From Onthophagus taurus (lineage: Eukaryota; Arthropoda; Insecta; Coleoptera; Scarabaeidae): 64,000 nucleotides of DNA. The notes beneath the pieces are model-generated. The model was not told where the DNA came from, made no database searches, and saw only the letters and a list, made by a program, of their open reading frames with translations. The stretch spans positions 13,461,501 to 13,525,500 of the forward strand of contig NC_091966.1 of NCBI RefSeq assembly GCF_036711975.1, in the 5' to 3' direction. The position numbers were made by a program, and so were the translations under genes. This document shows, one piece after another, positions 2,410-54,864 of this stretch (within the stretch, counting starts at the first letter, position 1; each line of letters opens with the position of its first letter).

Positions 2410-3012
2410 TTAATAATTTATATCATAATCAATCATTTTGCTTCTTAAAATCCACCAAGTATTTAAAAACCCAATATCAATAACCCTACCATAAAATTTA
2501 CCATATTCAATTTGTAAATAAGGACACTCAGCTTCAAAAATTTTACATGCATCACTAAATTGGTCCACCCACACTATTGAAAACAAGCCTAAATTTGTAT
2601 ATCGTAAAACCTTAATATTATAACAATGTTCTATAAATTTTAAATGATCTGCCGACACTTGTTTCTGCAAACTTGTATGTACCAATATCAAATCATTACA
2701 TGCTTTTAAATAATCGTTTCGAAAATGTGTAGCGTCCGGATTCATTTTTGCACAGAAAGTAGCAAGTCCAATTCCAGTAAATATACCAAAGGCTTTCATC
2801 GGTTTTTGTCGCAAATCAGTCGTCACGTCCACCGCTACATCTTTGTAATCTTTATACACATTTTTCCAATAGGCTATCCATTTTTCTAGTATGGTTCCTT
2901 TAACCTTTGCGTCTATTTTAGCCGCTACATTATTAGCCGTTTTTTGTGCAGCTTCTTTATGATCTTTAACTGTTCTTAGAAACGCTAACGTACGAGTTCT
3001 TAACCCGAACAT
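2410..3012 (-). CDS. Timm29: Tim29, subunit of the TIM22 mitochondrial inner-membrane translocase
   Basis: A single-exon 200-aa protein. The C-terminal half is diagnostic for the Tim29 (C19orf52) family: a FGIFTGIGLATFCAKMNPD segment that would form the inner-membrane helix (about residues 73-92), then LRYTNLGLFSIVWV, AECPYLQIEYGKF, and RVIDIGFLNTWWILRSKM followed by a DYDIN end, all matching the vertebrate protein in order. The N-terminus is basic and hydroxylated, with few acidic residues in the first 15, as expected for a mitochondrial protein. In vertebrates Tim29 is part of the TIM22 complex that inserts carrier proteins, and it contacts the TOM complex. The start is the first ATG, and the length is close to that of the human protein. 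It is transcribed divergently from RIOK1, with 354 bp between the start codons. Identification rests on remembered family similarity, but several motifs agree. Confidence 0.9.
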   Translation of the reverse strand: MFGLRTRTLAFLRTVKDHKEAAQKTANNVAAKIDAKVKGTILEKWIAYWKNVYKDYKDVAVDVTTDLRQKPMKAFGIFTGIGLATFCAKMNPDATHFRNDYLKACNDLILVHTSLQKQVSADHLKFIEHCYNIKVLRYTNLGLFSIVWVDQFSDACKIFEAECPYLQIEYGKFYGRVIDIGFLNTWWILRSKMIDYDINY

Positions 3013-3366
3013 TTTATTTATTTGTTAAAATCTTTAAATAATTGATGGTTTTAATTGAAATGAAAATGTTAGGTTAGAAACACATGAATTTGACAGGTGA
3101 CAGATTTTTTTTTTAATCGTACCCAAAAGGAATGTCCGAACTCAAACAAAATTTCAATACGAAATTTAAATTATAAAAATCTTTTAAAAAATAGGATTTT
3201 TATTAAATTTTAAAATCCTCAAGTTATTTAATTTCATTTATATGTTTTATTTACAAACTTAATCATTATTTAGTACAAAATAAGACATTTCTTTTATTAC
3301 TTATTACTGTCAATGTCAAAATAACATAACCTAATTTTTTCACGTGTCAGTTTATTTAAAATCATA
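3013..3366. promoter_or_regulatory. Putative bidirectional promoter, Tim29 / RIOK1
   Basis: These 354 bp separate the start codons of two divergent housekeeping genes. Next to RIOK1 there is an E-box (CACGTG, 3341-3346) followed directly by an insect initiator-like TCAGTT (3347-3352), 15 bp before the ATG. No TATA box lies at a suitable distance. A bidirectional promoter is inferred from the arrangement. Confidence 0.5.
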
Positions 3367-4971
3367 ATGAATACTGTACAAGAATTGGACGAATACGAAC
3401 TTTATTGTGATGTGGAGGATGATTGTAAAGAAGAAGTTATCGAAGATATTAACGAATTAAACATAGGATACAGTTCAGACTCTGAAGATGATACAAATGA
3501 AGAAGATTACTCATTAAGTATCAAAAATCGCGACAAGAAAGCACAAAAAACTCAAGAAGAAACATCAAATATAAAGTATCAACCAACTGACAAACTTTTC
3601 CATAAATACATGAACAAACTTAATTTTGATTCTTACAACATTTCAAATCGAGTAAACAATCAGATAAATGAGTCTCAAAAAAAGATTGATGACGAGCGAA
3701 TTCGTCGTAAAGATAAACAGGATCGTGCTACTTCTGAGCAGGTTATGGATCCTCGTGTACGAATGATTTTATTTAAATTATTAAACACTAATTTAATATC
3801 AGAAGTACATGGGTGTATTTCAACCGGAAAAGAAGCTAATGTTTATTATGCTACGGGTCCTAATGAAGGCCAATATGCCATAAAAATTTATAAAACATCA
3901 ATATTAACATTTAAGAAACGTGATAAATATGTTTCTGGTGAATTTAGATGGAGACATGGTTATTGTAAACAAAATCCAAGAAAAATGGTTGGGACTTGGG
4001 CTGAAAAAGAAATGAGAAACTTACAAAGATTGTATTCTAAAGGAATCATTGTTCCACAACCAATTCTTTTAAGATCTAATGTATTAGTAATGACATTTAT
4101 TGGTGAAGATGGCTGGCCAGCTCAAAAATTAAAAGATGCTCCTTTAAATCAATCAAAAGCTAGAGAAATATATCGTGACATTATTGTCATGATGTGGAAA
4201 ATGTTTAATTTATGCAAATTGGTTCACGGGGATTTATCAGAATTTAACATTTTGTACACAAAAAAGAAAGAATTGTGTATTATTGATGTTTCACAATCAG
4301 TTGAGCATGATCATCCAAGAGCTTTAGATTTTTTAAAAATTGATTGTAAAAACATTAATGATTATTTTAAAAAGTTTGATGTAGCTACTTTGAGTTTGAT
4401 TAAATTATTTGAGTTTGTTACTGATGGTAGTATGAATGAGGAAGAAATGGAGAAAAAACTAGATGAATTAGCAGAAGAATCAGCAGAAAAAGCTATTTCT
4501 GGTACATCAGCAAAAGATCAGGTAATTAATTAACCCAAACAAGAAAATTCAAAAATTATTTTAATTTTGTTTCTTTAGATTGAAGAAGAAGTGTTTAGGA
4601 ACGCATTTATTCCTCAACAACTCAATGATGTAATTCATTATGAAAGGGACCATAAAAATTCAAACAATCAAGTTGAAAATCTTATATATAAGACCATAAT
4701 TGGTACCAAATTAGACTCAGAAAAGGAAAGTCAAAAAGATGATAGTGATCTGGATGAAAATAGCGAAGATTCTGCGCAAGGTGAAGATGAAGAAGGTGAT
4801 GATGATGGAAAAAGTAAATTTGTGAACTCTGCTCGACCTAAAGATGAAAGTTTGGAAGAGAAAAAAGCAAGAAAAAAGCAAGTGAGAGAAGAAAAAGCTG
4901 AGAAACGAAAAGAAAAAATGAAAAAGCATGTAAAGAAACGACAAATTAAGTTAAGACATAGTAATAAATAA
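3367..4971 (+). CDS. Riok1: Serine/threonine-protein kinase RIO1 (RIOK1)
   Basis: Two coding exons, 3367-4521 and 4579-4971, joined across a 57-bp GT-AG intron in phase 0, give 515 aa. The RIO kinase domain spans about residues 120-345. It has the flexible phosphate-binding loop STGKEANVY (152-160), the ATP lysine in YAIKIYK (Lys173), the catalytic loop LVHGDLSEFNILY (Asp289, Asn294) and the metal-binding IIDVSQSVEHDHP (Asp307). The N-terminus is acidic, and the C-terminus is acidic then strongly basic (KKARKKQVREEKAEKRKEK), as in other RIOK1 proteins. Exon 2 begins IEEEVFRNAFIPQQL, the RIOK1-specific segment after the kinase core. RIOK1 is a cytoplasmic ATPase/kinase that drives late 40S ribosome maturation; in animals it also binds PRMT5. 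Start: the first ATG, just downstream of an initiator-like element. Confidence 0.95.
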
Positions 4972-9162: not shown

Positions 9163-12100
9163 TTATCTCTTTTTTAGTCGTCGGTTTTTTTTGTAGCCTT
9201 TTCCAAACCATCCTGCTTGAACTTTCTTCTCCGTCTTACTACCATTAGGATCCTCCAATTTCTGAATCTTATCGGATATAACGTCATCGCAGTTTTCAAC
9301 GTCTTCCTCTTCCGTCGAATAATCACAACATACACAAACGTTTGGTTTTTTGCTACCATCGATTTTACTATCGCGAAAATTTACATTAAGGAACTCGGGA
9401 TTTGATTTCGTATAAAACAAACAACTAAACGATTCGTAATTCTTATGACAAAACTTACATTCGGGCGTCGCGATAGTTTTTACCTGATTTACATTCGGAT
9501 AAAACGACGGATTTATAATACTGTGTATACCCGAATACAAAAAGTTCGTATACAAAGGATAATATAATAAATCTGGACACTCTAAAATACGTCTTTGCAT
9601 TAATAAATTTGATAATTGATAATATCTAACCAAAGTATCATTTATGGTGTTCGTAAACGTTCTATTTGTATCTAATATACTATCAATAGTAAACGATGAT
9701 TTTGGAGGTAGTACATTAGTGTTGTTCTCTATTTTTATTGGATTTGGAAGACTGACCTGATTTCTGGAGGTTGATATAATAGGAGTTTGAATGGTTGTAT
9801 TGCTCGTATTATTATCACAGTTGGTAAAACTGTAAGTAGCCGTGGCGTTGAGATCGTATTTGATCGTCTCCTTCACTATTTTTTGTTCACTGGCGGTTTC
9901 CGTTTTAATTTCTTCTTTGATTAAAACTTCCTCTTTTACTGATAATCTTTTTAAAACGCTCTGCGTTAGAGTATGTTCTTCACCTTCAAATAACGAAGTA
10001 CAATGATGAAAAATCGGATCTTTATCTCTATCATACTTAGGTACGTCCAATCCCAACAGTTCCATAACTCTTTTCATAACCAAATCGCATTTACCATGTA
10101 TTTTCACGTTTGCACACTCGTCTTTTGGTGTCCATTGTAAATTAACTATATACAAATTCGGTCGTTTCTTTGCCGGTTTATCCATTTGCCATAACCAAGG
10201 ATACTTTTTTAAAACTTTCAAACTAGAACCAAGGCAAACAATCGTTGTCGCTTTATCCGCGTTTTTACACGCACCAGACCAATTTACCGGATATTGTAAA
10301 TTGCCTCTTTCACCAAAATGAACGATCGTATCTAATAAAGGTGAATTACAAGAGTAACATTTTCTCATTGTTTTGTGGGCGAAACGAGCTGTATTTTCAG
10401 TAACGTCAAATAAACGGAGATATTCACGGACTGGTTTGCAATTCTTGCATACTTCAATGTACATGTTTCCGTGAACTTCGGAAAGGGCGGTTTTTGGTAA
10501 TCCCGATCTTAAATGAAGACCGTCACAGTTTTGGGATACTACGTATTTTAATATCTTTTTACGATAAAGTTGGGAAAGGGCCATGTGAGTGTATGTTGGT
10601 TCTGCTAGGCTTAAATCATAATTTCTGCAAAAAAAATTGTAATACAAATCAATCATCATTAAGATATACCGTTTGTATACATAATATACATAAAGATAAT
10701 TAAGAAAAATATATGTTTGGTAATAGTATTTAAATAAATAATTAAAATTGCAATAATAAGAACCGTAATATTGTGTTAAATAAATATTTGAAAGATGTGT
10801 AAATGAGTTTATTTAGAAGGAAAAAAAAAATCAGGCACCGGCGAGATTCGAACTCACGATCTCCTGTTTACTAGACAGGCGCTTTAACCAACTAAGCCAC
10901 GGCGCCTCACATCGAAGGATTCGTAAAATCCATTGATGTTTTACAGGCCAAAGAAAAAGCACTTGTTAGAATTATCGAACAAGATATCATAAATAATAAA
11001 TCATGTAATATTACAGTTTTATTTTTTTTTCTGAGTAACGTATAGTATATCCAGACGAAACAAATGTCCATAAATAAATATTGGGTTCCCAATATTAACC
11101 ACTCTGTAAAAAAAAGTAAATGGTAGGTTGAGGTTCAACAGACAACAGAGATGGGTCCCACAATAAATAATGTCAAAATCTAACAATAGGCTAATACAAC
11201 TTTGAGGAAGTGGAGGACTTTGTATGTTTGGGATCACTCAAACAATAAAAATAACATGGGGGGAAGTACAAAGGAAGCTTTTAGGAAATAGATGTTACTA
11301 TGAGTTACAGCCATGTCAAACTCAAAGTGGTGGGCTAAAAGCTGCTGAATATCTTAACGAAAAAAAGTAATATTATAGGACAAGTATATTTATTAAATTT
11401 TTGAGTAAAAAGGACATTACAGAAAAGTACAAACATTTACTTCTTTTCAAATTTACTCATTTTTTGGTATTTAACAGGCAAGTACTTATAAAATTCGAAT
11501 GTATCAACACTATTTATTTATTTTACACTGAATCTTAATCACTTCCGTTTGCAAGTGATGGGGAACTTTATCAATATCGATAGTGAAAAGCCCAGTAAAT
11601 AAAGAAAAAATTCTGAAAACGCTTTTCAAATTCTGCCAGAAGGCTTGCCATTTTCTTTGTATACATTTGAAATCGGGACACTTGTACTTTCCTGATACGC
11701 TTTACAAGTCAGAAAATGTGACAGATTATCCACTGCTAACTGTTTTTCCCACAGCAACATCTTACACTTGAAAGCTTTCACCACATGATTATGCATATCT
11801 TTTATAACTTGACGTGGTCCTTGCAATTTCGTGTATAATTCCGACAAGTGTTGTGTGATAAGAAAAGTACGTCGGTTAATAAGCTGACATCTTGCCCTTT
11901 CACTTCAATGAAAGAGCGTATTTCTGCTTTAAGTTTCCAAAACCGATCGAGAACCATAGAACACGAAAGCCATCGCTTACTAAATCACGTAAAAACACAG
12001 AAAACTGTCGCTGATTCAAGCCACGTAAACTTACGAAGTGTATCATTTTTTTCACTGATTTTAAAACGCTTTCCAACTTGATCACTTTTGAGCATAAAAC

Positions 12101-15100
12101 TTCTTAGTGGATTATACAATGAACACGATGAAAATCTGGTTTGTCATTGCCCATTTTTCTGATTTTTGTTAATGATTTTTATGTACTCCAGTCATGGACG
12201 GAGCTCCGTCTGTTGCAACGGAACACAGTTTTGACAAACCTAAATTGTACTTTTGTAGAAGTCCATAATCAACATTGAAAATATTCTTCCCAATTGTTGT
12301 ATCATGCAATGGTACTAATTCCAGTAATTCTTCATAAACGTTGATATTCATCAACAGCACAAAGAAAAATAGAGAGGCACAGGCAATAGAAAATGCAATG
12401 AAAGAATCTGATTTTGTTTTTACTGGTCACTTATATAGGCAGCCAACTCAGTAAGTCAGTATTTCGGCACAAGGATATATTTTGAAAAGCCTTCATGCTA
12501 CCGGGACTTACATTTTCTGCGGCCTTTACAAGGCATTCTTTTATAATTTCACCTTCAACAAATGGTTTTGAGTGTTTTGCGATCAACTTCGATAGTATGT
12601 AGTTCGCTTGAACAGCAATTTCGTTCTCTTGCTTTGGACGTGTAAACATAAGCTGTTGATTAACCATGATTTTAACTCATTTAACTCCTCGTTTCTAATC
12701 ATGCCTGCATAGTGGCTAAACTTAGTTTTATGACAATCATATTGACGTTTCATATTATAATGATTTTTTGACACCGACTGTAGTGTTACAAATCAAGCAA
12801 ATAATTTTGTCTTTTACTTCACAGCAAAAAAACTCTATTCCCCACATTTCTAGAAACATACGATGCTCATCCACGAGTTTCCTCTTACTTCCACTTGATT
12901 TTGAAATAGACATGTTGAAAACTTTATCTGAAATAAATAACAATAAGTATTGTTACGTGTACGTACGTACAGAGATGGACCGATGGAGGGGAAAGAGACG
13001 CCAGAAGAATTGAGATTGAACTGGATGGCCTTGAACCGGGATAGTTGGGGGAGAACTCTAGAGAAGGCCAAGACCCAGAACGGGTTGAAGATTCAATGAC
13101 GATGATGACAAAAATCCATCTCTTAAAAATTTGTTGGACCATGCCAAAATGTTGCTGTTCGGTAATGCTAAAACCCAACAACTGGAGACAATCATCAAGA
13201 TCCATCTGTAGCTGTCCGACCGTATAGGCGTTCGAAATTCAGATTATAACGGACAGATCCGTATATCCCACCAGACCATATCCCAGGCCTACAACATTCA
13301 GGCGTTAATAGAGCGAATACAATCGAACCATTGACACTCATCGTTGTCCGCAACGTATTGGAACAACACCTGGACGACGATATAACCGTTTTTTGGCCCG
13401 AGACGAACATTTATCTTGGACGGAGCTATGAACTGGTGAACATCTCAATAGACACTTCTGATTAACCCATTCTACCCACAAAACACTTCTACGGTTCAAT
13501 ATCTCCGTGACGAAGGATATAACGATGTCCTATCAATCGCCTTAGCATAAACTGCAATCTAGTTCTATTGCAACTAGGCATAGAAACTCCATTGGGGACG
13601 CGAAACTCTCCTGGAACATCGTCTCTTTGCCCACCTTCCCTGAGCGTCATGTCGACACGAGGGTATAGGGCAATATAGTGTGAAAACTCACAAATAACAT
13701 AACATCCTTAGCTGTTATTACAGATTTATTCAGCTGCTGCTAAGTCCGAGATTGCGAACACCATCAAACTGCAGTATTTCAGACATTACTCTTAGACAAT
13801 GGCAAAGCTTTGATTGCACTAATATATCATTGACTGATATTAACCATTTACGCCATCTATACAAAATCATCGTGGAACCAGTGAAACCAAAACAAAATTT
13901 GAAGGAATGCTGCACATCTCCTATCCAAAGGAATCTAAAGGGCCTGTTAGAGTTTGTCTGAAGTTTTTCACCAAAGCATTAGGTATAAGTAAAGATCTAA
14001 CTTTTTATGTAGAAAGTTGAACAAACAAGACGTTCTTAAAGATCGTAGAGGTGGCAAACTGAATTTCTCAAAGATAATGTCAATATGATATAATCATTAC
14101 AGAAACGGAAGATTATACAAAAACAACTCATTACATTGTATCAAGTAAAGACACATATAAAATTACCCACTTGAACATGACTCAAATCAAAATCAGGACG
14201 TGTCCATGTTTCAGTTGCAGCAAGAGCACAGATATTCTCACCCACAATGAAATCCTTTACATATGCAAAATGATGAACTAGTCAACATAAAGAATTGCAG
14301 TTATTTTATGGAACAGTGGCATTCAAACTTATATCTTTGATTTTGTTAATTAGATGATACTGCACTTGAAACAAATTTTATTGCAGAAAATCCACGTTTA
14401 CAAAAAAATAAGCAAATGAAATTAGGAATGTCAATACTTTTTTGGTAAACTGGATACTGACTATTTAGCTTTAACCATAATTCACTTAACTCTACTTGGG
14501 TAATCTGACTTCAAGTCTCCATCACAAGACAATTGCATTAAAGATTAATTTTCATTGATAGATGAATTGTTTAGATATTTATTATAAACAAATTGGTTTC
14601 TTGTCAAGAAAACTGAAAATAATCTTCTTTAAAATAACTACAAAAGAATCAACAAGAATTTGATAATGGTGTTTCATATTGTTAATAAAATTATCTTCTA
14701 TGTTCATGTTGTGCTTAGTCAGAAAATATCTAAATTATGAAAAGTTTCCTTTCAAAATGGCATTTATCAATACCAATTGATTGATTTTCCTTGCAAACTT
14801 AAATTGAAGATATTAAGGAGAATAAATATAGCCATAACATTGTTCAATCGATTACGCAATTCAAAATTAGTTGTCATCAGAAACATTTGCATCTGAAAAT
14901 TGAATTCAAACAATCTACTTCACATTTTCAAACGTGAATCATCTCTGCATAAAGTAACAATTGAATGTGGTCCCTACTATCTAGAACTGGTTAAGGCCAG
15001 GCAACATAAGTTATCTGCAATACCTACTACCTGGATATGAAAATAAATGAAATAAACGATACATAAAAATAGAATATTCTGTAACTACTTTGAGTTTACT

Positions 15101-16725
15101 GAAGACACCTCCATATTTTCTGGTTATAGCTCCAGCGCCATCAGTACCAAATATAATACATTTCTTTCAATCTAAGCCATTTTCCTCATAAAAGTTATTC
15201 AAATTCTTAAATCTGTAGTAGCATGCATTGATAATTGCAACAAATAGTGCTCTCTATTTCTTTTTCTCTCTATTCTGTACTCAACTGTATCATTTGACAG
15301 GGATACAACATCCAATTGTTTAACAGCATCAAAATTCAATTCATAATATCTTCTGCTGCAGATAATAACTTTTCACTTATTGTATGGGTATGAATTTTTC
15401 AACACTGTGTTCTTTTTAGCTGACCAAACATCCTTTTTAACCTTCACTGCTATTTAAGTTAATCCTGTATATGGAGACATTTTTAAACCTTTCTATGGTA
15501 AGATTGATTTCAGTAACAATAGTTTCATACACAGATGTGTTAGCATTTCAAAGCAGATTGCACATGAGGATGTGGTTCACTGTTGATCTCCATAATGGTG
15601 AATCTAATACCGCCATAGTTAGTATCACATCATCTAACAACTTTTCATACCTTACTTAGAAGCACTAACTAACCATCCTGACACTGAAATAGATTTTACT
15701 AGTTCTTTTCTGTACAATTATTTTTCTGATGTTCTTGTAAATCACTTAATCCAATGCAACAGACAAAATTGTCTTGATACACTGGTGAACATGGTTTTAT
15801 CTTGTTACTTATTTAATGTTTTTTAACATGAATGTTTTTGTAAATATAGATTCAATTTTCTATGTTTTATGTAATTAGTACATTATACATTATACTTAGT
15901 TGAAGACAGAAAAACTAACGTTTTCAAAATCAGTAACAAATATTTTTTTTATAAATTTATATCAATAAATCTTACTTCCATGCGCACACTTAGGAGGCCA
16001 GGGCTCGATTTGAGCTGTAACGCCAAGGAGGAAGAAGAAATCTTAGTTCCAACAAAGTTTACATTGATATCCTCTTATAATGAACCCCCATGGATCACAC
16101 TAAAGAGTTCATTATAACAGAAGTTCACTAAAATCAGTATATTGTTGTAACATTAAAAAAATTTTAATATTTTTTTGTAATTTTTAATTAATTTAGTTTT
16201 ATTGTACATACCCAATATCTTTCCCTTGTTGCATTCTAGTCCATATTCCATTGCTTCCTCTATAATCAGGAATTTTTGCTGCTGTACTAATTCCAGCTCC
16301 GGTATATACAACAAGATGTTGGGACTGTGCAATGGCTTGGGCAAGGACTTGGCATTTTACCTCTAAATCTGTAGGAGTATCTTCAATCTCCTCCAATCGT
16401 CTTTTAGCAGCATCACGTCGTTTCCATCTTGATTTTACTTCCTCAACTGCATCTGAATGTTCTTTCAACGTTTCCAAGTCATCCACCGTTCGTTCATCTT
16501 CAACTTTTTGTAATATAAGAGATACCTATAAAAATAATAATAATAATAAAGACTTTATAGGTTATGTCAATTTTTATTATTGTTTACCTTTTTAATGGAG
16601 GCATTTCTTTCATCTTTGGCACAAATTTTCTTATCAAGTTTCTGTTTGCGTAATATCCTACCGCATCCAAAGAAATTCTGTTCGATTTCCGACTCATTCT
16701 GACCATCAACATCATTTTCCATCAT
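9163..16725 (-). CDS. Sirt7: NAD-dependent protein deacetylase sirtuin-7
   Basis: Three coding exons on the minus strand, 16725-16588, 16525-16212 and 10624-9163, give 637 aa. Introns are 62 bp and 5587 bp, both GT-AG. An in-frame TAA precedes the first ATG. The basic coiled N-terminus is followed by the NAD-binding [17 protein letters not shown] (about 120-136), [14 protein letters not shown], the catalytic His202 in [13 protein letters not shown], zinc ligands Cys210/213 and Cys240/243, [23 protein letters not shown] and NLQWTPKDE, all in SIRT7 order. SIRT7 is a class IV sirtuin that removes acetyl (and longer acyl) groups from chromatin in the nucleus and nucleolus, notably H3K18ac in mammals. 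After about residue 345 there is a long, poorly conserved tail with several Cys residues and a Lys/Arg-rich end (KKNRRLKKR) that could be a nuclear signal. The long intron holds a tRNA gene and transposon relics. Confidence 0.93.
10833..10906 (-). tRNA. tRNA-Thr (anticodon AGT)
   Basis: The 74-nt minus-strand sequence folds as a standard tRNA. The acceptor 5' strand is GGCGCCG. The D arm carries the A-box-like GGCTTAGTTGG. The anticodon stem CCTGT/ACAGG encloses the loop CTAGTAA with anticodon AGT. The T arm is GTGAGTTCGAATCTCGC, and the 3' end is GGTGCC plus the discriminator base. There is no intron. A run of T on the minus strand directly after the gene (plus-strand A run at 10821-10830) is a Pol III terminator. 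It lies on the coding strand inside the large intron of SIRT7, about 200 bp upstream of the last exon. Confidence 0.93.
11300..12945 (-). pseudogene. hAT transposase relic (zf-BED, ZBED5/SCAND3-like)
   Basis: Several minus-strand pieces lie in family order. A BED-type zinc finger region ([20 protein letters not shown]) is followed by [20 protein letters not shown] and NISLCRNT. Next come [16 protein letters not shown] with [14 protein letters not shown], then [17 protein letters not shown], then [16 protein letters not shown] with [11 protein letters not shown]. These are the blocks of ZBED5/SCAND3-type hAT transposases. Frameshifts and stops separate them all. The ACTTTGAGTTTGAC-type sequence near 11310-11330 (minus) resembles the element's 3' terminal region. 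It lies in the SIRT7 intron in the host gene's orientation. Confidence 0.82.
13130..13815. repeat. Interspersed repeat of unknown class, copy B
   Basis: Homologous to 7205-8125 but without the MITE. It includes about 35 bp (GAGCGAATACAATCG onward) absent at the MITE insertion site of copy A, and about 150 bp near 13615-13765 absent from copy A. No recognisable protein domain in any frame. Located in the SIRT7 intron. Confidence 0.6.
14150..15700 (-). pseudogene. Second, more decayed hAT-like transposase relic
   Basis: On the minus strand, [15 protein letters not shown] (about 15320-15275) matches the SLSNDTVxRRIE block of hAT transposases. About 150 bp further, [20 protein letters not shown] matches the TDGAxAMxGxxxGV block that follows it in order. 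The rest is full of stops. A stretch near 14170-14280 ([19 protein letters not shown]) instead resembles a LINE endonuclease, so the interval may be composite. Boundaries are approximate. Confidence 0.5.
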
Positions 16726-17856
16726 ATTGGTGTTCACAATAAACAGGCATTCTTTTCTTTAGAATAAAGGAGGTTATTCATAAGCAATAAACACAAACAA
16801 TAACAAATTTATCATAACGATAATTCGTAATGAGTTGGTTTTTCTTTATTTTTTACGATTATATTTAAGAAATGCGGCCCGAGCAGAACTACACTAGGTC
16901 AACACCAAATAAAGAACAGTACTTTTTTTAATAGATTAATCGATCCATAAAGTTTAATTCGGAATTAACGGGCTAACTCTAGAACTGAATGATCTTAAAA
17001 TAGTTGCTGGTGCGTTCACTCCAATTTACAAGGTGCATATTATTTAGAAATCTTATTATAATTAGGAATAAATGTGACAAAAATAACCTGCACTCTACCG
17101 TGTCAATACTTAAACGTCAGTTTATTGACATTTCAACCGTGATTTAAATAATAATAAACCTTCCGCAATCTCCCCAAGGACATTTCCCGTTTTTAAATAA
17201 TTTTCTTCAAAAAGTAAAAAAGGATTATCTATATGTTGTAAATAATAAAAGAAAAAGTTGTCAAGTTGAGATATAAACAATAAAATAACATTTTTTAATT
17301 ATACGAATTATAATTTTATTAATAAATTACTAAAAATTATAATTACTATTATTTATTATTGACTATAATTAACTAATTTGCACAAATGTTGCTAAAAACA
17401 ATTATTTATAATCACTTTACACTAAAACTAGTTATTTAATTATTCTTACTTTGGCAACCTTTTTCTAATTTCGAATAATGTTTATCATAATTTAACAATA
17501 ATTTATTTTTTAATTTCAATAAAACTAAGTTCAAACTCACACGATAATCAACGTTTTTGCAAAAACGTTCAAGTCACAAATTAATTATAACCATTAAACG
17601 CTTCTTAAATATAAATCTAGTAACTTTTAGCCATTTTTTTTAAAGTGGCTAACATCACTAAACTTGCTGTAAACTTTTGCACCTTTTTTCATAATTTGCG
17701 AAAAGAAATCAATGTAAATTTCGATACAAAAGCATTGTTTTCGTTAATTTCGGTTGCTTCTACACATTAAGAATGTGAAAATATAACCAGTTTGCATCGC
17801 TGTGTGACGGCAACGCACACGTAGCCTTATCTCCAGATCGGTTCCATTATGTCCAA
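16726..17856. promoter_or_regulatory. Divergent intergenic region, SIRT7 / METTL23
   Basis: About 1.1 kb separate the start codons of two divergent genes. The middle (about 16900-17650) is very AT-rich without a recognisable repeat. The METTL23-proximal 100 bp is more GC-rich (around GTGTGACGGCAACGCACACG) and is the likely 5' UTR or promoter. No TATA box assigned. No gene seen inside. Confidence 0.4.
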
Positions 17857-20800
17857 ATGAGTGATGGTCCAAAAGAGAACCTAAGACGATTTATCTTCAC
17901 CTCCAAAACTAATTCAAGGGGCGAACCGGTTGAGGAACAATTGGAAATCGTAATTCCTGAGGTAAACAAATAATATAGCTAGAAATTGTATTTAATGTGG
18001 TTATTTTCGTTTTTATCCGGCTTTTTTATTATTAGGTAATCAACCATGTGCTAATTCGATCTTATGTAGTGTACGGTGTTACTTTTAACAACTTTTGAAT
18101 GCGTTATAGGTAAATATATGGTAAATAACATGCAGATTTTTGTATATGCGGGATTTATTAGAGATATTGGTTTAATGTAGAAGGATAGGAGTCCGTTTAG
18201 GTTAGAAAATGTTAGGTTAGGTTTGTATAAATGTTATATTTAGTTTTGTTAGTCTTTTTATTTATAACACCTCATTGTTTGCATGAGTTAGCACAATATT
18301 ATAAATTAGATGGGATGATATTTGTTGTGGGAACCATGGTGGAGTTACATTATAATTAATGTTGATTACTATGATGTTCACAAAATGTTTAGGAGGCATA
18401 AAATACCATTTAAAATGTTTTAAAAATCTAAAATAAGCAACTTTTTCTTAATAACTCAATTTAATTTGACAGATTTAACTCCAAATTTGACATTTTGACA
18501 ATTTAGTTCAACCGCCATCTATTAGCAGATGTTTTAAATAAATATATTTTTTGAAACATACATTGTAAAAAGCAATGATTTAATACAATAGAGATTTTTG
18601 ATATTAAAACAATTAATTTAAAAATTTATTGAATTATGATCCATTATTGGTCCAGGATTATGGCATTTAGTGGGAGTTTGTGACATAGTCACTTTAAATG
18701 TCAACATCCTGATCCTTGTAAGTATGAACTTGATTTCTTCTAATGTTGTAGTGGCGGAATAATTAGTAGACGCCAGAGGTTCCTGTCTTGGGATCTGCTG
18801 TCCAAAGAGAATGGCTTGAACAATGCAAGCTTCATTGTATTGAGATATTCAAACGGTTTGGAGCTCAGAAATGCTTTAAATTAAAGTTCACAAACTAGAC
18901 TCATAAGCTAAATAAACCAGGTATTGGTTAATTAATAATAATAAATATAAATCAAAATATTTTGGTGCAGAATGTATTTGCTAGGAATACAAGATCGCAC
19001 TTTGTTTCTAGAGGAAGTAGTTTACTTTAGTTGAAGAATACTAGTGATCTACAATCAAAAGTAGATGATGTAGAAATGACTGTATTAAAAACATCTCTAA
19101 GAATTCGTAGAACAATGCTGCGCAATGTAATTCCACATTGAGCTGATTGGGAATTTTGAAAACAATTGTTCACAAGATTCTTCAAGAGAATAATATGCAT
19201 CTTTGCCACATTGTTTTACATCAGACCTTAACAGACGCTGATTATAATAACAGACTGAACTATTGTCATTGGCTGTTAAATATGATATAGGCAAATCCAA
19301 ATTTTCTTTCATAAATATTATGGATGCATGAAGTCCATCTTTCAATACTGTAGGTGGTGTAAATATGCGTTGTTGGTTCGAGCAAAACCCACATTGGACG
19401 CGGCAGGTAGAGCCCTTATAGAGGGTTATAGACCCTCTTTTTTTTGACAACACTCAACGGAGAACAGTTTTAGCAAAACGTCTTTTAGAAAACGTAGAAG
19501 GAAGATGTGGTTCCGGCTTGTTAGTTGTTCAGCGCATTATGACCAAAACGTACATCAAGATGAGCAATATCCGAATCGCGTTATTGTAGTAGGAAGTCTA
19601 TTTTTTAAAGAATTTTATGTTTCTTTATGTCGGTTACGAGCTTCAAAATAATTTCAAGCTATTTCGCTTGCTCATTTTGCTCATTAGGATTTTTTCCCAA
19701 ATCTCTAAGCCTTAGGCTAAGCGCGCACTACGACTTTATGTCGCACGATTTATAGCAAAAAATCCAATTGTTTTGAATTAGAACACACGCACTTACAACC
19801 AAAAAACCGTAGTGACAGAAAAGATGAATAAATAGCACCCAACCGGTTCTATTTTTCTGCAACGCGACTGTCAAAAATGAGCGGTCTTTGATATGCAAGT
19901 GGATGTACCCAATATTTTTTTGTGGTTTTCTAGCTTTCATTCGTAATAATAAGGCTATTACACAAACGGACTCCACAAAATCAATTATGAATTGAAAACA
20001 AATCCGACTAGTTAAGTGCCCATTGCGCGGTATGTTTCAATTTATGGTGATTACGATTTTTCTGTTACTGCGACAAAAAGTCGTAGTGCGCGATTAGCCT
20101 TATCAATGTCGAGACATGTATTCTTATCGGGACACTTGGTATAAGGTATAGTTGTATTTGTTTATGCTTATCAGACATATGAGAAAACATGTATTTTTTT
20201 TGTTAAATGTTTCTTCTCGAACGTTTTATGGTCTTAGTTGCCATATTGCTTAACCATAAAGATAGGGTTTCGGTTTTCAAGAATCTTACTTTATCTCTTT
20301 TTTCTTATTCTAATTTTCACCTTTTCAAGCAACATCATGTTTTGGTAGATGTACGAAAACATTCTTGGACGTTCCTTACGTCTAGATGTCCCAGGCAGTT
20401 GAGGTCAATGATATTTTTAACTAATAAAGGAATCTTGGGGAAAAGAGTGCTTTTGATCATGAGGGCATGTATTAACATATTAGTTTCTTTTATCTTAAAT
20501 ATATTAATAGCTAGTGCACCAGTACAATAGCAATGTTATATATTTCACACATACATTAAGTACAAATGAGAGAAGTCAATTTAATATTACATTTCTCCAT
20601 TTCGATTTAGTAGTCAAAACGCTAGCACAATGTAAGTAATGTATACATCTGTGCATGTAATGGCTCATGTAATGTAAAATGTATTATTAATTACTTTCAA
20701 AAAACATTTTGTATGTTTTAATTCCGTTAATACGATGTCTGTCAAAAGTGTAAAATTAAAGAAGTATTAGGCCCCTCGCACACCAAAGCTACGCTACCCA

Positions 20801-22596
20801 TAAACAACCGGTTGTCAGTAGTTTTTCTGATGTCATTTGTATCGATATGAAGGATGCTGAAGGCCAGCATTCCTGTCACCTTTTCGATAAGTCTTCTCGA
20901 TGTCGGCTTCTCACTCTTGGGCCATTTTACCCAACACTCGTCGTCCATCGTGTCCACGTAGTCTCTTTAAGAACTGCGTCTCGCCCGTACAAATCGCACC
21001 ACATCAGGCACCCCCAGTTCCTCCCATATTGTCGAGCTTCTTGTTTGATCTCTAACGGTTAGTCCTTTAATAGTCCTTAGCGTTCTTATTTCAGTGGCTC
21101 TTATCATGCTCTTGGTTTTTGACATATCCGCCCTAGTTTCCGACGCGTAAGTCAGTGCCGGCTTCACTACCGTTTTGCAGATGCGGACTTTGCTCTCCTT
21201 GGTCATGTATTTATTCCCCCATACGATGTCTCTCAGATATCCAGATACTCTGGAGCCTTTATTGACTTGTGCGCTAGCTTCTTGGTGCAAATTTCTGCAG
21301 CTAGAGATGTCAACGCCCAGGTACCTACAGTGCTGGCTCTGTCTAATGGGGTTGGGTTGGCAACTGCCAATTTGCGTCTAATAGTCTCTTTCGATGTCAC
21401 CATTGCTTCAGATAAAAATCAAAGCGTATCGATTCTTGGACTTGAGTTTAATTTTAAGTTTATTTTTAAAGTTATTTTTTGAGTTTAATTTTAAAGCATC
21501 GGAATCGAGTCGGACTCAATTTTCAAAAATGGAACGATTCTCAAGAATTGAGTCAAGCATTCGATACTTTTCAAATCTGACTCGAGTCGACTCGATACCA
21601 AAAGTTGCGGACTCGTTGCATCACTAATAGTAATTATATGCTACAATAATATCGTCATCAGTTGATGACATCATTTTTACAAATCGTTTTTTGAAGGCTA
21701 ATGAGTGTCGAGTCATTTTATTACAAGGTCGTTGTAGTCGCGTAGCATTAGTGTAGGAGCTTCTATTTCATCGGTCGCCGTGTGACTTCTAATGAAATGA
21801 CGTCGAGGACGCGTAGCGTTGGTGCGCGAGGGGTTTTAGGTTTTACTTTAGTAATATAACCTTTAGGTTTACCCCAATAAGCGTTCGATTGCAAAATTTG
21901 GCATATTCGACTGAAATCACGAGTTAGATCTATAAAAATATGTATTATGTTTTTATATTTTAACATAAGGATATCTTTTATAATTATAATAATTGTTTCT
22001 ATTTGTTTCAGTTGGTTCAAGCAAGTTACTCCTTTTTAACTTGGTGTTGTGCACCAGTTTTGGCTTGGTTTCTCTGGGAAAAACGTCAAGAGCTCGTTAA
22101 CAAGCACGTCTTGGAATTAGGCTCTGGTACAGCGTTACCTGGAATAGTAGCAGCAAAGTGCGGTGCTAAAGTAACTCTAAGCGAATCGATCACTTTACCG
22201 AAATCGTTAGCTCACATTCAACGTAGTTGCCAACTGAACAATTTAGTGTTAAATCGTGATATTAAACTAATCGGACTTACTTGGGGATTATTTTTGCATA
22301 ACTTACAAGATCACGGTCCCATTGATTTAATTCTTGCGTCTGATTGTTTTTACGAACCTTCGAATTTTGAAGATATTTTGGTTACCGTTTCTTATATTTT
22401 GGATCATAACCCAGAATCGAAGTTTTTGTTTACGTATCAAGAGCGTAGTTCCGATTTGAGTATTGAACATTTGTTGGCAAAGTGGAATTTAAAGTGCTTC
22501 GTGCATAATATAAACAATTTAGGTTCGAGTGTTGGTTTGGACTTGCACGAGCTTAGCGGTGGTCACAGTATTCATTTGTTTGAAATTACGAGGTGA
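17857..22596 (+). CDS. Mettl23: METTL23-type protein arginine methyltransferase
   Basis: Two coding exons, 17857-17961 and 22012-22596, joined in phase 0 over a 4.05-kb GT-AG intron, give 229 aa. Exon 1 encodes RRFIFTSKTNSRGEPVEEQL and EIVIPE, matching the METTL23 N-terminus (RFxF...VxIPEVL). Exon 2 encodes the methyltransferase-16 fold: TWCCAPVLAWFLWEKRQEL, the SAM-binding VLELGSGTALPGIVAAKCGA (about 68-87), GLTWG, and the post-I/IV motif DLILASDCFYEPSNFEDIL. Mammalian METTL23 methylates histone H3 Arg17 in oocytes and is needed for cognition. A shorter ATG (ATGTCC, 17849) is followed at once by a stop, so ATGAGTGAT at 17857 is taken as the start. The stop codon is only 5 bp before the SLIRP ATG. 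Confidence 0.9.
19097..19453 (-). CDS. Unrecognised 118-codon ORF in the METTL23 intron
   Basis: An open minus-strand frame with balanced amino-acid usage and six scattered cysteines, including CRVQCGFC near the start and SSVCYYNQRLL in the middle. It starts with MLSKKRGSITLYKG and is not obviously repetitive. I do not recognise a family. Its position in a transposon-rich intron suggests a transposon-derived fragment, but a small host gene in opposite orientation is possible. No splice sites or poly(A) signal were assigned. Confidence 0.3.
   Translation of the reverse strand: MLSKKRGSITLYKGSTCRVQCGFCSNQQRIFTPPTVLKDGLHASIIFMKENLDLPISYLTANDNSSVCYYNQRLLRSDVKQCGKDAYYSLEESCEQLFSKFPISSMWNYIAQHCSTNS
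19715..20099. mobile_element. Harbinger-derived deletion element, TTA target duplication
   Basis: The 385-bp element begins GGCTAAGCGCGCACTACGAC and ends with the near-exact inverse GTCGTAGTGCGCGATTAGCC. TTA flanks both ends (19712-19714, 20100-20102), the 3-bp TWA duplication of PIF/Harbinger. On the minus strand it keeps the start of a Harbinger transposase (IALLLRMKARKPQKN, then in a shifted frame YWVHPLAYQRPLIFDSRVAE). It is therefore an internal-deletion derivative of an autonomous element. Located in the METTL23 intron. Confidence 0.82.
20760..21420 (-). pseudogene. RTE-type LINE, 3' end of ORF2, broken
   Basis: The minus strand reads KGSRVSGYLRDIVW, KESKVRICKTVVKPALTYAS, ETRADMSKTKSMIRATEIRT and LRTIKGLTVRDQTR, the C-terminal thumb region shared by RTE/CR1-like ORF2 proteins (normally LxPVLLYGSETW...). 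After a frameshift it continues as MDDECWVKWPKSEKPTSRR. No endonuclease or palm motif is present. It lies between the inverted termini of the 20770-21835 element. Confidence 0.7.
20770..21835. mobile_element. Composite element with 24-bp inverted ends and TTA flanks
   Basis: The left end CCCCTCGCACACCAAAGCTA and right end TAGCGTTGGTGCGCGAGGGG are imperfect inverted repeats (about 21 of 24 match when extended to GCGTAGC). TTA occurs just outside both proposed ends (20767-20769, 21836-21838). Termini of this kind with TWA duplication suggest a second Harbinger-like non-autonomous element. Its interior is mostly an RTE fragment. The outermost two bases do not pair, so the boundaries are tentative. 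Confidence 0.45.
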
Positions 22597-22601
22597 ATAA
22601 T

Positions 22602-22883
22602 ATGGGTTCTGTAAGTCGCGCCGTTAAATTATACGTTGGTAATATTCCGTGGACAGTCGGGCACATAGAATTGAAAAATTATTTTAGCAAATTTGGTCCG
22701 GTTGCTTTCGCGAACGTAATTTTCGACAGAAAAACGGGTTTATCGAGAAATTTTGGATTTGTTATGTTCAGTAATAGAGATGGGTTTGACAAAGCTACCA
22801 ATACAAAACAACATGAACTAGAAGGTAGAACACTCAAACTCCAAAAGGTGCATGACTCAACTACTTCTAACATTCAAATGTAA
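22602..22883 (+). CDS. Slirp: SLIRP, small mitochondrial RRM protein
   Basis: A single-exon 93-aa protein that is essentially one RNA-recognition motif: RNP2 KLYVGNIPW (about residues 8-16) and RNP1 SRNFGFVMF (about 46-54), with IPWTVGHIELKNYFSKFGPV between them, the SLIRP-type version of the fold. SLIRP pairs with LRPPRC in the mitochondrial matrix to stabilise mRNAs and aid polyadenylation and translation. No long presequence is evident beyond MGSVSRAVK, as in short insect SLIRPs. The start is the ATG at 22602; a GTG nine bases earlier overlaps the METTL23 stop and is not used. The METTL23 stop lies 5 bp upstream and ACBD6 begins 72 bp downstream, with no poly(A) signal between, so co-transcription is likely. 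Confidence 0.85.
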   Translation: MGSVSRAVKLYVGNIPWTVGHIELKNYFSKFGPVAFANVIFDRKTGLSRNFGFVMFSNRDGFDKATNTKQHELEGRTLKLQKVHDSTTSNIQM

Positions 22884-22955
22884 TTGAATGCACCTTAAGA
22901 AATTAATAGATATTTATAGAAATATTAAATAGTAAACTAAAATAGATTTATCACA

Positions 22956-23720
22956 ATGGCAAAGTCAGATAGTTTTAATGATATAGAGGAACTTTTAGAC
23001 TGCGACGATGAACTAACACAACAATTTAATCAAGCAGCGTCTCATTTGCAAACAATTGTTTCTGAGTTAGACAATAACACCCTGGTTTTATTATATGGGT
23101 ATTATAAACAAGCAAATGAAGGAAGATGCAACATCCCTAAACCTGGTTGGTTTGACAGCAAAGGGCGTTATAAATGGGAGGCGTGGCACAAACTGGGTGA
23201 TATGCCCCAAAATCAAGCCAAATCCTTGTACATAGAAAACATCAAGAAACTTGATGCAAACTTTACTTTCACCTCCACGACAACAAAAAAAGATAAAAAA
23301 GATAGTTGGGTAACCGTCTCAACATTATCAAGAGAAGTTATTCCTGAAAGTTCAAAATCGTTAACCGATTATATCAAAGATGACGACATTACGACAACAA
23401 ATAAAATCTTGAAAGCGTACAGTAAAGAACAACTTGCTGATGCGCTCCAACAACTAGATGAGGATGGATTGGCTTTAATACATTGGGCGGCCGATCGAGG
23501 ATCTTTGGATATCTTGCAGTTGTTGTTGTCTTTAGGGGCAGACGTAAATCTAACTGATTCAGAGGGACAAACTCCGTTGCATTATGCTGCAACGTGTGGA
23601 CATGATAATTGTATCAAGCTTCTTTTGGATTATGGAGCTAATTCCAAAGCTGTCGATGTAAATGGGGATACACCTGCTGATGTTTGTGGCGACACAGCAA
23701 CCAAAGCCCTGTTTTCCTAA
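22956..23720 (+). CDS. Acbd6: Acyl-CoA-binding domain-containing protein 6 (ACBD6)
   Basis: A single-exon 254-aa protein with the ACBD6 domain order. The acyl-CoA-binding domain covers about residues 20-108 (FNQAASHLQTIV, LYGYYKQANEGRC with the conserved Tyr-Lys-Gln-Ala, GRYKWEAWHKLGDM, Y-x-x-x-I-K-K-L). Two ankyrin repeats follow, from about 165 to 245 (DGLALIHWAADRGSLDIL, EGQTPLHYAATCGHDNCI, NGDTPADVC). ACBD6 binds long-chain acyl-CoA and stimulates protein N-myristoylation in vertebrates. It is the last of three co-directional, closely spaced ORFs and is followed by the only clear poly(A) signal of the cluster. Confidence 0.93.
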   Translation: MAKSDSFNDIEELLDCDDELTQQFNQAASHLQTIVSELDNNTLVLLYGYYKQANEGRCNIPKPGWFDSKGRYKWEAWHKLGDMPQNQAKSLYIENIKKLDANFTFTSTTTKKDKKDSWVTVSTLSREVIPESSKSLTDYIKDDDITTTNKILKAYSKEQLADALQQLDEDGLALIHWAADRGSLDILQLLLSLGADVNLTDSEGQTPLHYAATCGHDNCIKLLLDYGANSKAVDVNGDTPADVCGDTATKALFS

Positions 23721-23760
23721 GCGTAGCATAATGTGTATTAATTGTATTTGTTAAAATATC

Positions 23761-23766
23761 AATAAA
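23761..23766 (+). promoter_or_regulatory. Poly(A) signal for the METTL23-SLIRP-ACBD6 unit
   Basis: AATAAA lies 40 bp after the ACBD6 stop codon. No AATAAA occurs in the 5-bp or 72-bp gaps between the three ORFs. Confidence 0.65.
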
Positions 23767-53678: not shown

Positions 53679-54864
53679 TTAAATAGACTTAAAAAGATGA
53701 TTATTGTAAAATGAGTTAAACTGATCGAAATGTTTCAAACCTCCAAAACTTCCAAAATGACCACCGAATCCAGTGTGTATCGGTATGTAATTCGTGAATA
53801 ACCCTGCGTAATTTGTTGGATGATGATGATGATGAATTTCATGAACACCATGATGTAAACTATGGTGGTGTAGGTTGTGGTAACCATGGTGTAAGTGATG
53901 CAAACCGTGATGTAAATGATTTAATCCGTGATGCAAATTATGGTGGACTCCGTGATGATGAAGTCCATGATGCAAATCATGATGATGAAGCCCATAGTGA
54001 TGAAGTCCATGATGCAAATCATGGTGATGATGCCCATAATGATGAAGTCCATGATGCAAATCATGGTGATGATGCCCATAATGATGAAGTCCATGATGTA
54101 AATCATGATGATGAAGACCATGGTGTAAATCATGATGATGAAGACCATGATGTAAATCATGATGATGAAGACCATGATGTAAATCATGATGATGAAGGCC
54201 ATGATGTAAATCATGATGATGAAGTCCGTAGTGATGAAGTCCATGATGTAAATTATGATGATGAAGTCCATGGTGATGATCTAAACTATGATGTAAATCG
54301 TGATGACCACCATGGTGTAAATCATGATGAAGACTGTGATGTGATCCGTGATGTAGATCATGATGTAATGCATGATGTGAATCATGATGAGTACCGTGAT
54401 GTAAGCTATGATGGTGACCATGATGATGTGAGTGGTGACCATGATGATGTGAGTGATGACCATGATGATGTTTTCCTATTCCAAAAGTGTTATAGATTAA
54501 ATTGGATAGAATCCCCTCATGATGATCGTCTTCATGATGATCGTCGTGATGTATTAGTCTATCGAGGGTATATTTTAAGATATGGTAAGGAAAATTTTCT
54601 ACGAAATTTGTATATGCTGGGGCGTATCCAAATAGTCCATGTCCTTTCTTTTTATGGCGGCCACCATTACATAAAGAAACGACAGCTACTATTAATATAA
54701 CGCTCTGAAAAATAAAAGAAAAATGTGTACAAACACTTACTCAAGTCATAAAATCCTTAAAATAATCTCAAATAATTTTAACACCTTTACACACAAGGAA
54801 AATAATCATTCTTGTCACTATCACAAAACTACCACAAAAATAGAAAACTTACTGTAATTTTCAT
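53679..54864 (-). CDS. Secreted histidine-rich repeat protein, function unknown
   Basis: Two exons on the minus strand, 54864-54853 (MKIT) and 54704-53679, joined in phase 0 over a 148-bp GT-AG intron, give 345 aa. The start MKITSVILIVAVVSLCNG is a clear signal peptide, split by the intron as in many small secreted insect proteins. A spacer follows (GYAPAYTNFVENFPY, then DRLIHHDDHHEDDHHEG). Next come about 230 residues of short repeats built on L-H-H-(H)-D/G-L-H-H-G, in which about half the residues are His. The tail has no His repeats and is Gly/Phe/Asn-rich (FGGHFGSFGG, KHFDQFNSFYNN). No cysteine pattern, cuticle or enzyme domain was seen. Histidine clusters suggest metal binding, pH-dependent assembly or a structural role, but none is shown. 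A TATA box lies at the expected place. The opposite-strand D/H-rich ORF is an artefact of the repeat. Confidence 0.82.

Follow-up and report, generated by a model that had tools for sequence, protein, structure and literature searches.

An Almost AUG-Free METTL23 Coding Sequence Directly Upstream of SLIRP and ACBD6 Suggests a Shared Message in Onthophagus taurus

In the beetle Onthophagus taurus, three genes stand head to tail on the plus strand of a 64,000-nucleotide (nt) stretch of DNA, hereafter referred to as the window (C1:13461501-13525500, contig NC_091966.1): METTL23, which has two exons, SLIRP, and ACBD6. All of their reading frames are open. The METTL23 coding sequence is almost free of ATG, which is a signature expected of a messenger RNA (mRNA) shared with SLIRP and suggests such sharing here. 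Overall, the best explanation of the locus, with a probability of roughly 0.6, is a shared spliced mRNA on which METTL23 would be leakily scanned on the way to SLIRP, with ACBD6 as the third cistron. Arrangements of this kind are known in insects, and METTL23 looks like an addition to the known first cistrons. A unit of three cistrons had been proposed earlier from the letters of the window (the original prediction), and its description of three intact, unrelated, same-direction open reading frames (ORFs) with gaps of 5 and 72 bp is exact. In window positions, the layout is as follows.

17857..17961, plus strand: METTL23 coding exon 1, 35 codons, phase 0
17962..22011, plus strand: METTL23 intron, 4,050 bp, GT-AG (GAG/GTAAAC ... 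TTTCAG/TTG), predicted from the sequence
22012..22596, plus strand: METTL23 coding exon 2 including the stop codon, with the Pfam match and zero ATG in any frame
22597..22601, plus strand: METTL23-SLIRP gap, 5 nt, ATAAT
22602..22883, plus strand: SLIRP ORF, 93 amino acids, single RRM; start codon flanked by A (-3) and G (+4)
22884..22955, plus strand: SLIRP-ACBD6 gap, 72 nt
22888..22932, plus strand: 14-codon out-of-frame ORF within the 72-nt gap
22956..23720, plus strand: ACBD6 ORF, 254 amino acids, ACBP plus ankyrin repeats; start codon flanked by A (-3) and G (+4)

ATG Depletion in METTL23

In the modelled spliced message, METTL23 has an ATG at +7, after which 688 nt are free of ATG in all frames until the SLIRP start is reached. 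The protein itself, of 229 amino acids, has no internal methionine, an absence with P 0.005 given the methionine frequency in ten other coding sequence (CDS) pieces (58 of 2,504 residues). Out-of-frame ATGs are similarly scarce, with a single one found against 5.9 expected when the gene's own synonymous codons are permuted (P 0.0012) and 7.9 expected when codons are pooled from 11 CDS pieces, where none of 20,000 permutations was as low. Under either permutation scheme, no other of the 64 triplets has as low a z in METTL23 as ATG. Neither SLIRP nor ACBD6 is depleted of ATG and, among the ten other CDS pieces, a SIRT7 piece is somewhat low (P 0.009 to 0.018), as is one ABCA piece (0.04 to 0.09), while the remaining eight are not.

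Comparison with other open frames gives the same picture. Among 33 open frames with 195 or more codons, that of METTL23 exon 2 alone contains an ATG-free stretch of 582 nt (57 frames were listed, and 24 from the contig-end repeat loci L021, L022, L024, and L026 were dropped). The 32 other frames, not all of them proven genes, have at least three ATGs in every 582-nt window. ATG-free stretches of 685 nt, moreover, were found in none of 614 windows of other coding pieces and in 53 of 372,600 overlapping windows on both strands of 200 kb of sampled genome. Both the codons and the residues of METTL23 seem to bear the mark of having been scanned through.

Start Codon Contexts and the Proposed Route to SLIRP

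Compared without a species-specific consensus, the AUG of SLIRP, with A at -3 and G at +4, stands in a better context than that of METTL23, which has C rather than a purine at -3 and A at +4. Two short ORFs surround the METTL23 start.

17849..17860, plus strand: upstream ORF of three codons, whose TGA overlaps the METTL23 ATG (ATGA)
17864..17884, plus strand: out-of-frame ORF of six codons, which carries the final ATG ahead of SLIRP in the modelled spliced mRNA

Three AUGs are thus clustered at the METTL23 start (17849-17884), and whether the leader takes in the one at 17849 would hinge on the position of the transcription start.

We infer that METTL23, SLIRP, and ACBD6 would be carried, at least in part, on one spliced mRNA running from upstream of METTL23 to the AATAAA at 23761. 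Some scanning ribosomes would bypass the suboptimal METTL23 AUG, or would resume scanning after the short upstream ORFs around it. Past the ATG at +7, these ribosomes would face only AUG-free sequence and could then start at the better AUG of SLIRP. By analogy with stoned/Snapin, the bicistronic genes of green algae, and sloth1-sloth2 (see below), SLIRP would be reached by scanning through METTL23. ACBD6 would follow as the third cistron, just as ACBD follows SLIRP1 in the published fly pair, and would perhaps be reached by reinitiation or be translated from a second, shorter mRNA.

It is conceivable that SLIRP is instead translated through termination-reinitiation after METTL23, or from an internal ribosome entry site (IRES), and the 5-nt gap would suit reinitiation. 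At 229 codons, however, METTL23 is long for a cistron followed by reinitiation, and depletion of AUG is not predicted by this mechanism. The RNA folding of three stretches at and near the junctions is unremarkable (z -0.65, 1.73, and 0.34), and no Rfam family reaches its gathering score in the 16.5-24.5 kb region, where two matches with E values up to 1 are both far below it. Translation of SLIRP by either means has little probability.

A readthrough fusion of METTL23 and SLIRP was also considered and rejected; a second in-frame stop follows five codons on, and a stop in the SLIRP frame, separated from the SLIRP ATG by six codons, likewise excludes the fusion.

Published Dicistrons and Comparison Loci

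The Drosophila genes CG33714 (SLIRP1) and CG33713 (ACBD) belong to the dicistronic pairs listed by Misra et al.; the first ORF encodes the RNA-binding protein and the second the acyl-CoA-binding protein (Hayden and Bosco 2008, PMC2276209). The most distant case of this dicistron is an expressed sequence tag of the crab Carcinus maenas (PMC2276209), and the fly dicistron named in the original prediction is thereby confirmed as real and old. The coupling of SLIRP with ACBD is, therefore, already known. In O. taurus, SLIRP lies directly 5′ of ACBD6 on the same strand, which is the arrangement required for the conserved dicistron, and the order of the RNA-binding and acyl-CoA-binding genes is that of the fly, a likeness drawn from the published description. 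Unlike in the fly pair, METTL23 is found 5 nt upstream, and it goes unmentioned for that pair in the excerpts of PMC2276209. Loss of either CG33713 or CG33714 has been reported to lower viability (PMC11674832), while the excerpt of a Tribolium screen paper mentions only the fly CG33714. No paper on a METTL23-SLIRP unit was found in the literature searched, whose coverage leaves out most subscription journals.

Leaky scanning through AUG-poor first cistrons was reportedly tested in Drosophila by Wall et al. 2005. At the stoned and Snapin loci of Drosophila, the first cistron is described as poor in AUG and as starting in a non-consensus context, and leaky scanning as the way to the second (PMC11291117, section 13). 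METTL23 is likewise AUG-poor with a non-consensus context; the genes are different, however, a third cistron is present, and the case made here is one of sequence. The sloth1-sloth2 locus of Drosophila shares with METTL23-SLIRP a 5-nt gap and a weaker first AUG context, and has reporter support for leaky scanning (PMC9681215), but it encodes two short paralogous peptides, whereas METTL23 and SLIRP are unrelated proteins, the first of 229 amino acids. In green-algal bicistronic genes, ATG is depleted before ORF 2 and the context of ORF 1 is weak (PMC11291117, sections 8 and 13), and restoring an AUG to a methionine-less ORF 1 brought ORF 2 output down to background (PMC11291117). Depletion upstream of the second ORF is thus a shared trait, for which the algal cases have both transcript and mutant evidence.

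In D. melanogaster, 159 dicistronic pairs and seven tricistronic sets have been described (Crosby et al. 2015, PMC4528330), and stop-to-start distances range from -34 to 319 nt at loci with polycistronic transcripts only (PMC4528330). Both gaps at the present locus, of 5 and 72 nt, fall inside that range. MOCS2A-MOCS2B, which is bicistronic and leaky-scanned in humans (PMC9607355), was sought in the O. taurus genome, and at L019 (G000:C7:39880-43110) a MOCS2A-like ORF stops 2 nt before the MOCS2B ATG (TAACAATGG). The second ORF was located through MoaE, and the name MOCS2A is a reading of the first, which ends in Gly-Gly. It has no internal methionine, and its one out-of-frame ATG, against 2.0 to 2.2 expected, is not significantly low. 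Unlike MOCS2A and MOCS2B, which are two subunits of one enzyme, METTL23 and SLIRP are unrelated. At L017 (G000:C7:10520374-10523562), SNAPIN-like exons are followed, after 18 nt, by an ORF that reads as N6AMT1/HemK2-like; PF14712 matched two loci, and the other, L018, has no such partner ORF. The 5-nt gap would thus fit a series of tight published dicistrons in this genome, albeit a short one (both of those sought were tight).

Conflicting Evidence and Alternative Explanations

Several observations count against a shared, leakily scanned message. To begin with, the depletion lies entirely in METTL23 exon 2 (4.5 out-of-frame ATGs would be expected there and none is present, a value as low as in 17 of 20,000 permutations of the codons), and exon 1 retains an out-of-frame AUG (17864, with G at -3 and +4). 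This distribution would also fit an alternative, non-coding first exon spliced to METTL23 exon 2, which would then serve as an AUG-free 5′ leader for SLIRP, METTL23 being made from an mRNA with exon 1. The 4,050-bp intron could house the promoter needed. In a related form, an alternative acceptor inside exon 2 would be used; the best other acceptor in 22012-22956 is the AG at 22441, with 12 of 16 pyrimidines against 13 of 16 at the exon 2 acceptor. An operon resolved by spliced-leader trans-splicing would call for a 3′ acceptor shortly ahead of every downstream ORF, and the AG nearest to SLIRP on its 5′ side (22592) has 9 of 16. The C at -3 of the METTL23 start fits leaky scanning unaided, however, and an alternative first exon is considered rather unlikely.

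A second point is the occurrence of a Motif 1-like site, together with an initiator (Inr)-like hexamer, 42 bp before SLIRP.

22560..22570, plus strand: Motif 1-like site TGGTCACAGTA, which departs at one position from Motif 1 of fly core promoters; possible internal SLIRP promoter

A SLIRP core promoter within the 3′ coding end of METTL23 would give rise to separate or additional mRNAs. The site is one of three in the window (both strands), and one of seven in the 318 kb examined, with at most one mismatch to Motif 1, a fly consensus that this species would have to use as well; the Inr-like TCATTT lies at 22572, 12 bp downstream of the start of the site. Eight motifs were scanned, however, synonymous shuffles of the last 120 nt of METTL23 match the quality of the site in 4.6% of cases, and the absence of AUGs further upstream would stay unexplained. 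An internal SLIRP promoter is, in our estimation, unlikely. In the 260 bp upstream of METTL23, where a shared message would call for a promoter, no exact core-promoter motif was found except minus-strand TCT-like and Inr-like ones, and the scan yielded no convincing candidate.

Third, the 72-nt gap contains ATTAAA, a common variant of the poly(A) signal.

22924..22929, plus strand: ATTAAA within the 72-nt gap, which may be a weak poly(A) signal
23761..23766, plus strand: AATAAA, 41 nt past the ACBD6 stop; probable poly(A) signal of the whole unit

Further signals are an AATAAA at 23400, within ACBD6, and an ATTAAA at 22261, within METTL23. Downstream richness in T and G is highest at 23761 (0.62), followed by 22261 (0.57), 22924 (0.47), and 23400 (0.38), although this lead is modest, with 192 sites in the window averaging 0.50 (standard deviation 0.09). 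The AATAAA after ACBD6 is, therefore, not the only one, contrary to the original prediction. The related argument that neither gap has room for a poly(A) signal plus a promoter survives for the 5-nt gap, whereas there would be space for a poly(A) signal in the 72-nt gap.

Fourth, the P values near 0.001 come from one gene of one species. Should the three neighbors be transcribed independently, the shortage of AUG in METTL23 would be a matter of chance, and a P of about 0.001 is not extreme for a single gene; the low SIRT7 piece and the 53 ATG-free genomic windows of 685 nt mentioned above also speak for chance. On the other hand, within 5 nt there is no space for a separate promoter or poly(A) site that would avoid the coding sequence, the fly pair is published as sharing an mRNA, and the shortage of methionine would be an extra departure. 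Independent transcription is judged very unlikely.

A fifth point is that scanning fails to explain ACBD6, because SLIRP is not depleted of AUG. SLIRP has five internal ATGs against 5.4 expected and one more lies in the 72-nt gap, making six between the SLIRP and ACBD6 starts; leaky scanning was therefore rejected as the way to ACBD6, which needs another route. Of the three-cistron unit originally envisaged, then, the first step is strengthened by the almost AUG-free METTL23, and the second gains nothing of the kind from the sequence between SLIRP and ACBD6.

Finally, SNAPIN of O. taurus is not AUG-poor, with seven and two ATGs in its two listed frames (splice ends unresolved), and the rule of an AUG-poor first cistron therefore fails for at least one pair in this genome. 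Translation of SNAPIN-N6AMT1 in this species may differ from that in Drosophila.

Possible Origin and Implications

It is possible, though decidedly tentative, that METTL23 joined the old SLIRP-ACBD pair to form a three-gene operon, that its coding sequence, down to its methionines, has been reshaped by selection into an additional role as an AUG-free leader for SLIRP, and that a single mRNA fixes how much of a protein methyltransferase is made relative to an RNA-binding protein. SLIRP is mitochondrial in humans, and the suggestion that the three products are linked through mitochondrial RNA and acyl metabolism gained no support. If the shared message is real, mRNA sharing would limit which amino acids a conserved enzyme can carry, as METTL23 is without internal methionine. 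Moreover, METTL23 would be predicted to be nearly AUG-free in those insect genomes where it adjoins SLIRP, and ordinary elsewhere. METTL23 would thus extend an arthropod dicistron whose way to the ACBD cistron the sequence leaves unexplained.

Gene Identities and Copy Number

The genome searched comprises 290.8 Mb in 33 contigs. Pfam assigns Methyltransf_16 to METTL23 (1.6e-20), RRM_1 to SLIRP (6.6e-15), and ACBP to ACBD6 (4.7e-27, plus ankyrin). The human METTL23 sequence had a single match in the genome at E <= 0.001, namely the METTL23 locus (1.3e-43; 45% identity over 186 columns), while in the forward search METTL21-type structures came top (1.6e-11; seven distinct sequences, none labelled METTL23). 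METTL23 has been reported to methylate histone H3 arginine, and a review adds that more biochemical evidence would be desirable. Human SLIRP, in a query identical to PDB 8any_A6, placed the SLIRP ORF at the top of nine matches (1.5e-9; runner-up 3.2e-6). Counting against the name, the forward PDB search ranks the SLIRP chain 41st of 201 (3.7e-11); ahead of it stand chains of hnRNP type, many of which have two RRMs. The name ACBD6 is a reading of the ACBP plus ankyrin architecture.

Genome searches found no second full-length copy. Likewise, no retrocopy of a spliced polycistronic mRNA was seen, the exon 2-to-ACBD6 stretch having matched only its own place (E <= 10, best candidates scored), and scans of viral and genome contigs, in collections without insect genomes, found no relatives.

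On the minus strand, divergent to METTL23, lies a sirtuin gene (9163-17857) with a SIR2 domain, which reads as SIRT7-like. Within the METTL23 intron, at 20967-21290, a minus-strand ORF resembles, by its translation, the tail of a reverse transcriptase of a long interspersed nuclear element.

Neighboring and Side Observations

Elsewhere in the window, TIMM29 (minus strand) and RIOK1 (plus strand) are divergent at 2410-4533, with 354 bp between their ATGs and possibly a bidirectional promoter. A low-complexity repeat at 53679-54740 is open on both strands (His-rich on the minus, Asp/His-rich on the plus). Finally, telomere-like CCCAA/TTGGG repeats occur at three of the six contig starts examined (C1, C2, and C5; loci L021, L022, and L024), and a telomere motif of this type has been reported in some beetles (PMC8233369) and in a lacewing (PMC12564400).

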